Assembly (NCBI RefSeq): GCF_008629685.1
Contig: NZ_VWSF01000002.1
Location: 186,001 to 250,000, forward strand
Length of the DNA stretch: 64,000 bases
Direction: 5' to 3'
Origin: Adhaeribacter rhizoryzae
Lineage (GTDB): Bacteria; Bacteroidota; Bacteroidia; Cytophagales; Hymenobacteraceae
Made by a program: the position numbers and the translations under genes. Shown here piece by piece: positions 30,486-42,117 of the stretch (positions are counted from its first letter, which is position 1; the number at the start of each line of letters is the position of its first letter). The notes below the pieces were generated by a model. It searched no databases. It saw nothing but the letters and a program-made list of their open reading frames with translations, and was not told the origin of the DNA.

Positions 30486-31052
30486 TTATTTCAGCCAGCG
30501 CCTGATTAAGTCTTCAGTTTCATTATCGTTTTTCCAGCCCAATAAACGGGTTTTCTGGTTAGGATTGTGGTACAAAAACCATTTCTGAATAATTTCTTTG
30601 GCAGCCGGATATTTTGTTACAAATTCATTAAAATCGGTAGCGGCTAATATTTGGTCAGTGGGCCGGGACGGAGTAGCTATTATTATGTATCGCGCTTCAC
30701 CGGCAATATTTAAAGCTAAAGTACCCAGCGGTATTACTTCCATTACGGTGCCCGATGGTACACTTTCGGCGAGTACCAGGGCTGCTAATGGTTCGTTTTC
30801 GTTGTTTCCGGAGTGCTTTATAGCCGTAGAAGGAATAAAGCCTAAGTTTCCGGGCAAAGGTAAAAAGTTGATTTTTGCGGGCAGGCCAGCCTCCTGCGTA
30901 CTTACAAATGTTTTGGTTTTACTGTCGTATTCCTGCGGATGATTACTACCCGCCGGCGTTAATATTACTACTTGTAATTGTTTGTGCGCCGAGAAAGTTG
31001 GTAGGTTTTCGTAATCGGTTTTGCAGGAGGCTAGCAGGAGCAGGCCAACCAA
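30486..31052 (-). CDS. Degenerate inorganic pyrophosphatase-like lipoprotein, start uncertain
   Basis: The body follows the soluble (type I) pyrophosphatase pattern: LQVVILTPAGSNHPQEYDS, FLPLPGNLGFIPST, LAALVLAES, SGTVMEVIPLGTL. The residues expected to bind metal and phosphate are largely gone: EIPAG reads LTPAG, GNYGF reads GNLGF, the D-G-D-P-x-D loop reads ENEPLAA, and the later Asp after AGE is absent. A lipoprotein signal (LLLLASC) precedes it, but no ATG or GTG lies in the right place. The only nearby option is TTG at 31052, leaving just ten residues through the lipidated Cys; the open frame runs back to 31241 inside the M1 gene. It may be a pseudo-enzyme or a decaying gene. Confidence 0.6.
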   Translation of the reverse strand: MVGLLLLASCKTDYENLPTFSAHKQLQVVILTPAGSNHPQEYDSKTKTFVSTQEAGLPAKINFLPLPGNLGFIPSTAIKHSGNNENEPLAALVLAESVPSGTVMEVIPLGTLALNIAGEARYIIIATPSRPTDQILAATDFNEFVTKYPAAKEIIQKWFLYHNPNQKTRLLGWKNDNETEDLIRRWLK

Positions 31053-31074
31053 ACCATAACTATATAAATATTGG

Positions 31075-34035
31075 TTAACGCACCATTTCGGCCACTTGCC
31101 GGAAAGGATTAAGCGTGTTGAGTTGTAACTGGAACCGGATATTATTTTTAAAATTTTCGAAGCTTTCGGGAATATTTTGCGCATAATTGCTACCGGCAAC
31201 CGGGAAGTAAATCTGCAGGAAATTTTTTGCCAAAGATACACTTAATCCGGTTCCGTAAAGCAGCTCTTTTGCCCCGTAAGCTGTTCCCAAATCCAGGTAA
31301 GCGGTTAGCGGCACCACGGGTATATCGGCATTCAGGTTGACGGCGGTAAGCCAACGACTTGAAAAAATTGGAATAAAATTACGGAAGGCGCCATCCTTTC
31401 CATCGGTTTGCCGCACAAAAGCCGCTAAATTATCATTGCGCTGCGAACGGTCTAAGAAAATAGTTTCTTTTGTGTAATCGAGGCTACTACTCATTCCTAA
31501 CTGAAAAAGCGGAGGAATAGCGCTTGCGTTCCCGAAAAAATTACCTCCAAATACCCTAACCCCAAAGCGTTTTTTAGTTGAATAGTAGCGCTCATATTCC
31601 AAGGATAGTTTTCCGACCAGCACATTATTCCCCGAGAGGGTAGTACCGGTAGTAGTATCGGTTGGTAATAAATCAAAATGCAATTCGGCGCCAACTGTTT
31701 GCAAGGCATTCTTTTTCTGGTAGGTATAACGGGCCCACGGAATATTATACTTTACCTTGTTCTGGTAAATGGGTAACAAAACCCCATTCTCTTCAGGGTT
31801 TACCAAAGCTTCTTTGTGCGCAATAGCCGTGTAGCCCAGTTGTAGTTGCTGCTGGCTAGCACCGGCGGCCGGTTTCGGAAAATTAATAGCTACCGATGGT
31901 TCCAGTTTCTGAAATCGTTCAAACCGTTGGGCATTCAGGCCTACTACAACCGACTGGGCTAAAGTTTTGGGTAAAAACCGGATATTAATATTGCCAATGC
32001 CCCGTAGTTCTTTTTGGCCTACGCTGTATAAGGGCATGAATAAATAATTAATTTTCTTCTGAAAAAGCGAGCTGTTATATAGCGCCCCGCCCAGCATAAT
32101 GCGGTCGTAGGTATTGGCCCCTAAGGCCGGTACAAAATAGATTTGCTTCCGATCGAACTGTTCTACGCCCGCCAAAAACTGCAGCCGAATGGGTTCTACT
32201 TTCTTAAGTATGCTATTTACTGCCAGCCGGTTGTTGGAGCGGTTTAGTTCGGGTAAAAAATAGCCGGGGTCTATAACTACATCGTGTACTGCTTGGCTGT
32301 TAAAGGTTAGTTCCTGTGTTCGTTGGCCGGGTTTGGTCCATTTTACTTCTAGTATTTGGCCATTGGTGTTGCGGGTAGATACCGGTACTGGCGCCAATAA
32401 ATTGGTTTTATTTTCTACGCTTACCTGTAGCGTATTTTGGCTTTGGCGTAAGTGCGTTAAGGCAGCATCTACGGTTTGGGTACTTTGGATAAGATCTTTA
32501 AAGAACCAGTCCAGCTTTTCGCCGGTAACTTCTTCGAAAACGGCCTGTAAATCTTTGGGGTACGGGTGTTTAAATTGCCAGCGCCGGAAATATGTCTGAA
32601 ACGCTTTATCGAACCTGTCGTGCGTAAGGTAATTAGCCAAATATTGCAGCATAACGCCGGTTTTCATGTACACAATACTGCCGTAATTGGCATACGTGTA
32701 AGAAGCCGCTGGCTCTTCTATAGGCTGATCTAATCCGCGACTAGCGGCAATCTGGTACAAAAGCAGGTTTAAGCCGGTGCTGTGAATATTTTGTAAACGG
32801 TATTTTTTAATGCGGTCGCGGGTAAGCAAGGGCTCCAGTTGGCTGTAATTATGGTTGGTTAGCTGGCCCATCCGGAACTCGTAATAAGAATTAATGCCTT
32901 CGTCGAGCCAGGGGTGCTGCCGCTCGTTGGTACCCAAAATGCCGTAAAACCAGTTGTGGCCTACTTCGTGAATAATAGCGCTGGGGTCGGTAACGGTTAC
33001 CATCGGGTATTCCATGCCTACCCCGGCACTTAAAGCGCCATCTACGGCGGTGGCCTGCTCGTACGGGCAATCGCCTACCCACAACGAATAATAGTGCACT
33101 GCCTCGTTAATATCCTTAAGGCTCTTTACCCAGTCCGAAGCATTTTTATTCAGGAAAAATAGCCAGGTAGTAACTTTACGTTTAGAATGCGGCAGTTCCA
33201 CTTCGCCTTTCAGCACATTAAACCGTTTATCGGCAAACCAGGCAAAATCATGAATATTTGTGGCGGTATAGCGCAGGGTTTTAGTTTTTGCGGATGAAGA
33301 TGGAAAAATATCCTCGGTTTGCCGGAATATTCTTTTATCGGCAGTTATGGCCGAAAGACTATCCAGTTTTCTTAATTCAGCAGTGTTTTGCAGTACACCC
33401 GTTGCTGCCACTAAATAATTGGCTGGCAAGGTAATACTTACATCAAAGCGACCAAATTCCGCATAAAATTCACCTTGGTCTAAGTAGGGCATTTGGTGCC
33501 AGCCTTTGTGGTCGTAAACCGCCGGTTTGGGAAACCACTGCGTAATTTGGTACGATTGCCCCACATGCCCGAGCCGTGAAAAAGAATTAGGCAGTTTCAC
33601 CCGAAAAGGTGTAGAAATCCGGATGCGCTGACCACTCGTTAATGGCTGGTTCAGGATGAGTTTGCCGATGTCAATATTTTTCTCATCAATTTCAAACTTT
33701 GCGGTTTGCCCGTTTATCTTAAAATCCAGCCCATCTATGTAGCCGCGGGCACTATCGGGTGCAAACTGGAAATCACGTTTTTTATTAACGAGCTGCTGTT
33801 TGGCAAAGGCGGTGGTGTTGTTTTTATAAGCGTTGGGCCACAGGTGGAAATAAATAAAAGTTAGCGCATGCGGCGAATGGTTAATATATTCTATTTCTTC
33901 GGTGGCCGTTAAGGTGTGCTGTTCATCGTTAAGCGAAACCGCAATGGTATAGTTTACTTCCTGTTGCCAGTAGGTTTGCGCAAAGCCTTTCGGGATTATT
34001 AGTAGCGATAAAAGGAGTACCAGTAAATATTTCAT
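31075..34035 (-). CDS. M1 family metallopeptidase with C-terminal beta-barrel-like domain
   Basis: The ATG at 34035 gives 986 residues with a good signal peptide (ending KGFAQ). The N-terminal domain and gluzincin catalytic domain follow the M1 pattern: HEVGHNWF with the HExxH start at residue 356, and the third ligand Glu in PWLDEGIN 24 residues on. From about residue 600 to the end the sequence has no peptidase similarity. It consists of alternating hydrophobic strands with aromatic girdle residues (IMLGGALYNSSL, INYLFMPLYSVG, LQLGYTAIA, FRLQLN-like endings). This fits an outer-membrane beta-barrel of the Omp85/surface-antigen kind and would anchor the peptidase. It ends at the pyrophosphatase-like frame, which overlaps it. 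Confidence 0.88.
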   Translation of the reverse strand: MKYLLVLLLSLLIIPKGFAQTYWQQEVNYTIAVSLNDEQHTLTATEEIEYINHSPHALTFIYFHLWPNAYKNNTTAFAKQQLVNKKRDFQFAPDSARGYIDGLDFKINGQTAKFEIDEKNIDIGKLILNQPLTSGQRIRISTPFRVKLPNSFSRLGHVGQSYQITQWFPKPAVYDHKGWHQMPYLDQGEFYAEFGRFDVSITLPANYLVAATGVLQNTAELRKLDSLSAITADKRIFRQTEDIFPSSSAKTKTLRYTATNIHDFAWFADKRFNVLKGEVELPHSKRKVTTWLFFLNKNASDWVKSLKDINEAVHYYSLWVGDCPYEQATAVDGALSAGVGMEYPMVTVTDPSAIIHEVGHNWFYGILGTNERQHPWLDEGINSYYEFRMGQLTNHNYSQLEPLLTRDRIKKYRLQNIHSTGLNLLLYQIAASRGLDQPIEEPAASYTYANYGSIVYMKTGVMLQYLANYLTHDRFDKAFQTYFRRWQFKHPYPKDLQAVFEEVTGEKLDWFFKDLIQSTQTVDAALTHLRQSQNTLQVSVENKTNLLAPVPVSTRNTNGQILEVKWTKPGQRTQELTFNSQAVHDVVIDPGYFLPELNRSNNRLAVNSILKKVEPIRLQFLAGVEQFDRKQIYFVPALGANTYDRIMLGGALYNSSLFQKKINYLFMPLYSVGQKELRGIGNINIRFLPKTLAQSVVVGLNAQRFERFQKLEPSVAINFPKPAAGASQQQLQLGYTAIAHKEALVNPEENGVLLPIYQNKVKYNIPWARYTYQKKNALQTVGAELHFDLLPTDTTTGTTLSGNNVLVGKLSLEYERYYSTKKRFGVRVFGGNFFGNASAIPPLFQLGMSSSLDYTKETIFLDRSQRNDNLAAFVRQTDGKDGAFRNFIPIFSSRWLTAVNLNADIPVVPLTAYLDLGTAYGAKELLYGTGLSVSLAKNFLQIYFPVAGSNYAQNIPESFENFKNNIRFQLQLNTLNPFRQVAEMVR

Positions 34036-41076: not shown

Positions 41077-41163
41077 GTAATATTAAGGTTTAATTTCTAA
41101 TTTTTAATTTATACCCGCATTGTTTCCGTGTGCAGCAGTGAAAATTTAATGCAACAACTAAAG

Positions 41164-42117
41164 ATGAAATTAACAAAAGCATTGGCGATTAGTAGCATAA
41201 GCATGTTGTGTCTGGCTTGTTCCGGGACCAAAACCCCAACTGCCAGCAACCTAACCCCGGAAGATAAACCAATAATTATCCAGCCCGAAAAATCAGTAAC
41301 CAAAGCTTTGGTGCCAAGTTACGAGCATGCCATGATTACGGCCCCGCTCACTGCGTTTGGTTTTGATGCTTTTTATAAAAAATATACCGATGCTTTTGGT
41401 ATACCAATTATTTCGTCGGAGAAAGTGCCCGATGCTGCGCTGCTTATGGCACGCGATATTGTAAATTATATGCTGGTAAAGCGCATGGATATTCGGACGG
41501 CTTTAATGGAGCGAAAAGCGCGGGTACTCATTATGGCCGAAACCGAAATGGAAACAGATTTACCAGAACGCAGCGATTGGAAAAAACCAACCCGCGATGA
41601 CAAACGCCTGACCCCAGCCGAACGCGAAAATTATGATAAACCCGGCGGTATTGCCAGCATGACCGACCGGGAATATTGGAATAAACGCGCGCGCGGCATG
41701 GGTGGAACCGTTACGTCCTGTGCCGAAGAAAATTTGCTGGGCTACCCCAATACCCGTTATTACGGCGAAAATATTCTGGTACACGAGTTCAGCCACAATA
41801 TTATGGGCGCGCTCCGTACTGCCGATCCAGCCCTTTTTGCCGAAATTGAACCAGCCTACCAGGCCGCTAAAGCCAAAGGCCTCTACAAAGGCCAATACGC
41901 CATAAACACCGTAGCCGAATATTGGGCCGAAGGTAGTCAGTGGTGGTTTTGGTCGAACTACGAATTTTACGATGGAGATACACGGGTACAGTCGCCGGAC
42001 GATTTGCAGGCTTATGATCCCACGCTTTACAAAATATTAGAACGGGTATATGCGGGCCATCATATTCCGGCCGATGTTTATTACAGTCGGAATATCAGGC
42101 CCGCCCGTCGGCCTTAA
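41164..42117 (+). CDS. Putative zincin-type metallopeptidase lipoprotein
   Basis: The ATG at 41164 gives a lipoprotein signal (SISMLCLACSG, lipidated Cys at 19) and 317 residues. A zinc motif HEFSH lies in ENILVHEFSHNIMG near 205-217. A second acidic motif, NTVAEYWAEGSQWWF, near 247-261, could supply the third ligand Glu in gluzincin fashion. Two Cys are present besides the lipidated one. I do not recognise a named family, though the EYWAEGSQWWF pattern recurs in predicted secreted zincins. Probably anchored in the outer or inner membrane facing the periplasm or outside. It lies alone between panB (divergent) and lptD (convergent). Confidence 0.78.
   Translation: MKLTKALAISSISMLCLACSGTKTPTASNLTPEDKPIIIQPEKSVTKALVPSYEHAMITAPLTAFGFDAFYKKYTDAFGIPIISSEKVPDAALLMARDIVNYMLVKRMDIRTALMERKARVLIMAETEMETDLPERSDWKKPTRDDKRLTPAERENYDKPGGIASMTDREYWNKRARGMGGTVTSCAEENLLGYPNTRYYGENILVHEFSHNIMGALRTADPALFAEIEPAYQAAKAKGLYKGQYAINTVAEYWAEGSQWWFWSNYEFYDGDTRVQSPDDLQAYDPTLYKILERVYAGHHIPADVYYSRNIRPARRP

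Follow-up and report, generated by a model that had tools for sequence, protein, structure and literature searches.

The Omp85/TpsB proteins have been divided by Heinz and Lithgow into ten subfamilies, one of which, the 'Metallo' group, bears heads of the phosphoesterase family PF00149, called a metalloprotease in that paper; its role was weighed between periplasmic quality control and export, and subfamilies lacking POTRA domains were also described (PMC4104836). An M1-headed Omp85-like protein is not among the ten, and the main text never uses the word 'peptidase' (PMC4104836). A 2026 review counts at least 12 Omp85 members, whose POTRA domains number from one to seven; the passages cited here include no M1 case (PMC13067283). 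Omp85 barrels have 16 strands, and the segment ahead of strand 1 is periplasmic (PMC11116518). The lipase head of the patatin-Omp85 protein PlpD was once thought to be exported and was then shown to be retained in the periplasm (PMC11116518). On the side of the peptidases, the nearest functional parallel to the protein described here is BepA, a periplasmic zinc metallopeptidase tied to outer-membrane protein assembly, which acts on LptD at the BAM complex, either promoting or degrading it (PMC8423444).

We have analysed an M1 peptidase fused to an Omp85-type barrel, encoded in a 64-kb stretch of DNA (hereafter, the window) from a 6.5-Mb genome of Adhaeribacter/Hymenobacteraceae affinity. The protein resembles PlpD and the other patatin-Omp85 (type Vd) proteins in that an Omp85 barrel follows an N-terminal hydrolase head, but PlpD carries a patatin lipase head followed by one POTRA domain, whereas here the head is an M1 domain and no POTRA domain is seen. 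With the 'Metallo' subfamily it shares an enzyme head on an Omp85 barrel, although the window protein matches PF01433 only. BamA, TamA/TamL and Sam50 have the same 16 strands and long loop L6 but also possess POTRA heads, an RGF/RGY motif and a PF01103 match, none of which is seen in the window protein. In the same order, secreted aminopeptidases that consist of M1 alone (about 630–660 residues) share its M1 architecture to residue about 605, but their chain ends where the barrel linker begins. BepA, in contrast, has no barrel fusion and belongs to another peptidase family than M1. A fusion of M1 and Omp85 was not found in our searches of the open-licence PubMed Central literature, and may have been published elsewhere.

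Results

Gene and domain organization

The fusion gene starts at an ATG (34035) and stops at a TAA (31075); the mechanical ORF begins at a TTG 12 codons upstream. The features, in window coordinates, are as follows.

31075..34035, minus strand: M1 peptidase–Omp85-type barrel fusion gene, 986 aa
33976..34035, minus strand: predicted signal peptide, residues 1–20, assigned by eye from the sequence; no lipobox by pattern search
32272..33975, minus strand: M1 domain, residues 21–588 (N-terminal beta domain, gluzincin domain, beta-sandwich), from PF01433, secondary structure and Foldseek
33010..33024, minus strand: GVGME, residues 338–342, corresponding to the GXMEN exopeptidase motif, from sequence and alignment
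32899..32970, minus strand: zinc site HEVGH-18-E, residues 356–379, from sequence and alignment
32149..32271, minus strand: conserved linker, residues 589–629 (DP...PE.NR.NN...KK.EP), from alignments A1 and A2
31117..32148, minus strand: 16-stranded Omp85-type barrel, residues 630–973, from AlphaFold2 models and fold matches
31354..31533, minus strand: long loop between strands 11 and 12, residues 835–894, at the Omp85 L6 position, with invariant Asp853 and Arg863, from alignment and model
30486..31136 (start approximate), minus strand: next gene, immediately after the fusion gene, encoding a PF00719 inorganic pyrophosphatase-family lipoprotein

The G+C content is even over the two halves of the fusion gene (0.455 and 0.449) and close to the window mean (0.438), and thus gives no indication that foreign DNA was inserted recently. 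The top named relative of the fusion protein, from an Adhaeribacter MAG, is 77% identical. Elsewhere, the window contains a cobalamin riboswitch (RF00174, 60974–61174, minus strand; 92.4 bits, gathering threshold 31.5) and a 329-aa ORF (41128–42114, plus strand) that has no Pfam match at E ≤ 0.01.

The M1 head

PF01433 matches residues 353–513 of the fusion protein with 57.2 bits, against a cut-off of 27.7, and is the sole family at E ≤ 1 in a Pfam scan of the whole protein; NCBIfam yielded sub-threshold matches only. No POTRA domain was detected in the Pfam scan, and the N-terminal part is occupied by the M1 domain. The M1 site of the window protein is intact, comprising HEXXH-18-E (356–379), GVGMEY (338–343) and Tyr456. 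Alignment A1 has 62 full-length rows, and in 61 of them the site residues (HEVGH-18-E, together with Glu342 and Tyr456, the glutamate of the GXMEN-type motif and the catalytic tyrosine) are conserved; locus L013 differs. In a Foldseek search with the whole model, the best 50 matches were M1 aminopeptidases, among them ERAP1, ERAP2, IRAP and APN. ERAP-type M1 aminopeptidases possess a helical C-terminal domain; this domain is absent from the predicted structure, in which the chain passes from the beta-sandwich into the barrel. The gluzincin head proposed in the original prediction is borne out by the Pfam score, the intact site and the fold matches. Judged from its sequence, the head has all of the residues that an M1 aminopeptidase requires, and would be active.

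Predicted structure of the barrel

The original prediction had also placed an outer-membrane beta-barrel of the Omp85/surface-antigen type behind the gluzincin, on the grounds of alternating hydrophobic strands. AlphaFold2 gave a confident membrane-type barrel there and not a soluble beta-sandwich, both for the whole chain (62-row alignment; mean pLDDT 90.7, pTM 0.88) and for residues 585–986 alone (pLDDT 89.1, pTM 0.87); the placement of the head relative to the barrel rests on the whole-chain pTM. Residues 630–970 form 16 predicted strands: 11 strands, a loop of 60 residues that includes a short helix, and five more strands, the last of which is short (967–970). The Omp85 plan is likewise strands 1–11, the long loop L6 and then five strands.

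The fold comparisons agree with this assignment. Foldseek returned 639 matches for the barrel at E ≤ 10 (best E 4.2e-8), and the 50 listed are all BamA or TamA, albeit modest matches, with query-normalised TM-scores of 0.38–0.47 and rmsd of about 8–12 Å. All 50 rows given by VIA-align 2 are BAM, TAM, SAM or TOC entries, headed by D. radiodurans BamA (Z 18.1, rmsd 4.4, 293 residues). The proposed strand alternation is indeed present in the barrel, where none of 500 shuffles scored as high. However, the strands of the soluble M1 domain do almost as well in the same test (1/500), and alternation was therefore rejected as a diagnostic of the barrel; the case rests on the fold prediction and the fold match.

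Relationship to the Omp85 families

At the sequence level, direct links to Omp85 are missing. No Pfam family matches the window barrel, the chance-level matches among the 62 barrels scanned include no Omp85 model, and PF01103 does not match the fusion protein. The barrel profile found no match among the PDB sequences. In direct hhalign comparisons, window-type barrels reached a probability of 0.3 against 21 BamA-type barrels and of 5.0, aligned at the expected place, against nine barrels of an Omp85-lipoprotein type that was assigned by eye.

An indirect route exists through four out-of-class M1 fusions (L155–L158). The window-type barrels (alignment A2) match these with an hhalign probability of 99.1, and the four in turn match the Omp85-lipoprotein barrels with 89.1, the BamA barrels with only 36.6, and the barrels of long PF01103 proteins with 85.7, a set that we labelled 'metallo' from ORF length and published work rather than from the heads (PMC4104836). 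In the same run, the window type did not exceed 1.0 against the PF01103 sets of long and of head-less proteins, while the Omp85 sets matched one another with 86.4–99.5. DUF5686 barrels, the negative control, gave 0.3–18.9 against every other set and were rejected as relatives of the barrel. A second fusion type (A5, 20 C-termini) matches the window type with 95.7 and has an invariant Gly-Gly and Arg-Gly in loop L6. In the alignment, the RG(F/Y) motif is missing from loop L6 of the window-type barrels; this motif is typical of Omp85 proteins, but not universal. Since direct profile comparison fails and the indirect bridge works, we regard the barrel as an Omp85-like, divergent branch and assign it to no named Omp85 subfamily.

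The genome itself has six PF01103 loci, all on contigs other than that of the window. One of them (L289, G000:C1:30675-31481) is a PF01103 barrel inside a 1,192-aa ORF.

Orientation of the head

An anchoring barrel had been seen as a way to display the protease. Our analysis argues against this: the head is most likely periplasmic, since the M1 domain lies ahead of strand 1, in the place of POTRA. In the model, the outer-side connections measure, from the N-terminus, 3, 4, 2, 14, 14, 60, 6 and 17 residues, and the inner-side turns 3–9 residues. The extended loops, of 14, 14, 60 and 17 residues, emerge on the barrel side facing away from the M1 domain, which fits a head on the inside. Omp85 topology, the loop lengths and the PlpD precedent together make display unlikely.

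Distribution and age of the fusion

The genome scan found 585 relatives, of which the best 80 were kept; 76 of these are full-length fusions with the barrel, which is consequently no chance pattern, and the fusion proves to be conserved. Two of the remaining four (L094 and L113) end at a contig end. The barrel profile alone has matches in 75 of 392 Bacteroidota genomes, four of them weak and out of class. The listed ORFs are about 900–1,055 aa long, except for one of 445 aa at a contig edge and one of 501 aa with a stop; with this profile, therefore, no barrel without an M1-like head was seen. In an order-level search, the full-length type was confined to a small group, 10 loci (L005–L014) of the 29 fetched from other genomes. 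M1 and barrel distances correlate (r = 0.76, 1891 pairs). The 61 other rows of A1 (60 active, one dead) are 61, 54 and 37% identical to the window protein on average over three successive parts of the head, and 29% over the barrel. The fusion is old. A quick tree, which has SH-aLRT support only and drew long-branch warnings, places five M1-only rows in between the types of fusion.

Heads without a zinc site

Among 71 strong barrel-profile matches, we fetched 67, the other four being the window and three close relatives. HEXXH-18-E is present in 14 of the 67 and missing in 50, and three were set aside: L208 (G230), a fusion gene with an internal stop codon; L243, at a contig edge; and L263, with an altered site. 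Full-length fusions with an altered M1 site also occur outside families f25 and f26 (L013, 1477–4437, minus strand; L263, 346–3108, minus strand).

The 50 dead heads are all 43 assessable members of f26 and all seven of f25 (L202–L268 series). Family f26 includes Flavobacterium: the BamA of one member genome (G390) aligns end to end, over 899 residues and with few differences, with F. johnsoniae BamA (9n2d). In the dead heads, His356 is replaced by Lys, Gly or Ser and Glu357 by Thr, Ile, Ala or Val; His360 is Asn or Lys in 38 and Glu379 is Asp or Asn in 48, and the position of Tyr456 is never Tyr. They remain M1 homologues, with hhalign probabilities of 99.6 against M1-only proteins (456 columns) and 100 against active heads; two whole proteins of the dead type (948 and 938 aa) matched no Pfam family. 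Both domains stay full length in all 50. Mean identity within the dead set is 0.39 for the head and 0.47 for the barrel, a reversal of the constraint in the mostly active A1, where the head is the more conserved part. Live-head fusions are found in Hymenobacteraceae and Crocinitomicaceae, and dead-head fusions in Flavobacterium and its kin; on the quick tree, the state of the site requires at least two changes.

Neighbouring genes and stand-alone barrels

The PF00719 pyrophosphatase-family lipoprotein adjoins the fusion gene in 21 of 92 loci, all of them in Hymenobacteraceae, and is therefore no general partner. In 22 other loci a PF00149 gene (LpxH-like, named by eye) lies directly downstream, in 18 a DUF4369/thioredoxin-like gene lies upstream, and the Flavobacteriaceae-type loci have still other neighbours. 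Across the 92 loci and the Flavobacteriaceae-type loci there is thus no shared operon partner; the neighbour varies by lineage and points to no pathway.

The profile of the second fusion type (A5) also matches stand-alone barrels of 400–465 aa, mostly in family f43. In six of eight fetched loci (L194–L199), stand-alone barrels of about 414–444 aa adjoin an acetate kinase-like gene (named by eye), and L199 has two in tandem. The three stand-alone barrels scanned with Pfam (L194, L199 and L200) matched no family.

Discussion

Our computational analyses showed an M1 domain with an intact site, a 16-stranded barrel of Omp85 topology and an old fusion between the two. The explanation that we favour, and hold to be likely, is that of a Sec-exported, Omp85-anchored protein whose periplasm-facing M1 head binds and trims peptides. 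After export, the C-terminal barrel would insert in the outer membrane, and the M1 domain would replace the POTRA domains on its periplasmic face. The most plausible role of the head in the window organism is to capture peptides, unfolded or imported, on the periplasmic side of the outer membrane and to trim them there. Its orientation, activity and substrates are the parts of this explanation that we infer. The common function cannot consist in proteolysis alone, because the Flavobacteriaceae retain the head after loss of the zinc site. That the head was kept after its chemistry was lost argues for binding, rather than cutting, as what the family shares: a peptide or client would be bound beside the barrel, with catalysis as an extra in lineages like that of the window. 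Given its working zinc site, the window protein is probably an aminopeptidase as well.

Another possibility, doubtful on present evidence, is a BepA-like biogenesis factor, with the barrel acting in the insertion or translocation of outer-membrane proteins and the M1 fold binding clients in place of POTRA, while cleavage serves quality control or has been lost. The Omp85 fold of the barrel, the replaced zinc residues in 50 of 67 relatives with both domains full length, the reversal of conservation in the dead set and the precedent of BepA at the BAM complex all agree with such a role. The absence of RG(F/Y) from the window-type L6 does not, and the genomes already own several Omp85 proteins, six PF01103 loci in this case; moreover, the case of PlpD demonstrates that not every Omp85 barrel is an insertase (PMC11116518). 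We can suggest only tentatively that the fusions constitute a separate Omp85-related subfamily, in which the M1 fold replaced POTRA as the client-binding head of an insertase or translocase, originally as an active peptidase that became a fixed pseudo-peptidase in Flavobacteriaceae and the neighbouring family.

The intact site of the window protein, and the secreted M1-only paralogues (about 650 aa) that are common in the order, would also suit a purely nutritional peptidase, whose barrel is a passive anchor that keeps the aminopeptidase just inside the outer membrane, where it shortens oligopeptides delivered by TonB-dependent importers. We consider this unlikely, as it leaves both the retained, catalytically dead relatives and the conserved loop L6 unexplained. 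It is quite improbable that the protein is a type Vd-like autotransporter, with the M1 domain crossing the barrel and being displayed or released at the surface. The patatin-Omp85 proteins were first described in this way (PMC4104836), but the head of PlpD stays periplasmic (PMC11116518), as does the N-terminal side in Omp85 topology, and the whole-chain pTM of 0.88 fits a head fixed at the inner side of the barrel. Least credible by far is a C-terminal part consisting of soluble beta structure or of an unrelated barrel that merely resembles Omp85: the lack of a Pfam match, the failed direct profile comparisons (0.3 and 5.0) and the non-diagnostic alternation would allow it, but we rejected it on the strength of the models (pLDDT 89–91, 16 strands), the Omp85-type entries that fill the top 50 listed by Foldseek and VIA-align 2, and the profile bridge through the out-of-class fusions.

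To conclude, we favour an M1 head that faces the periplasm from an Omp85-type barrel and binds and trims peptides there. The fusion adds an enzyme head that is new to the published Omp85 classification, and does so in a phylum for which the picture of outer-membrane assembly is currently being revised. The live heads of Hymenobacteraceae and Crocinitomicaceae, set against the dead heads of Flavobacterium and its kin, amount to a natural experiment, which makes it testable, in a genetic model genus, what the head does besides cutting.
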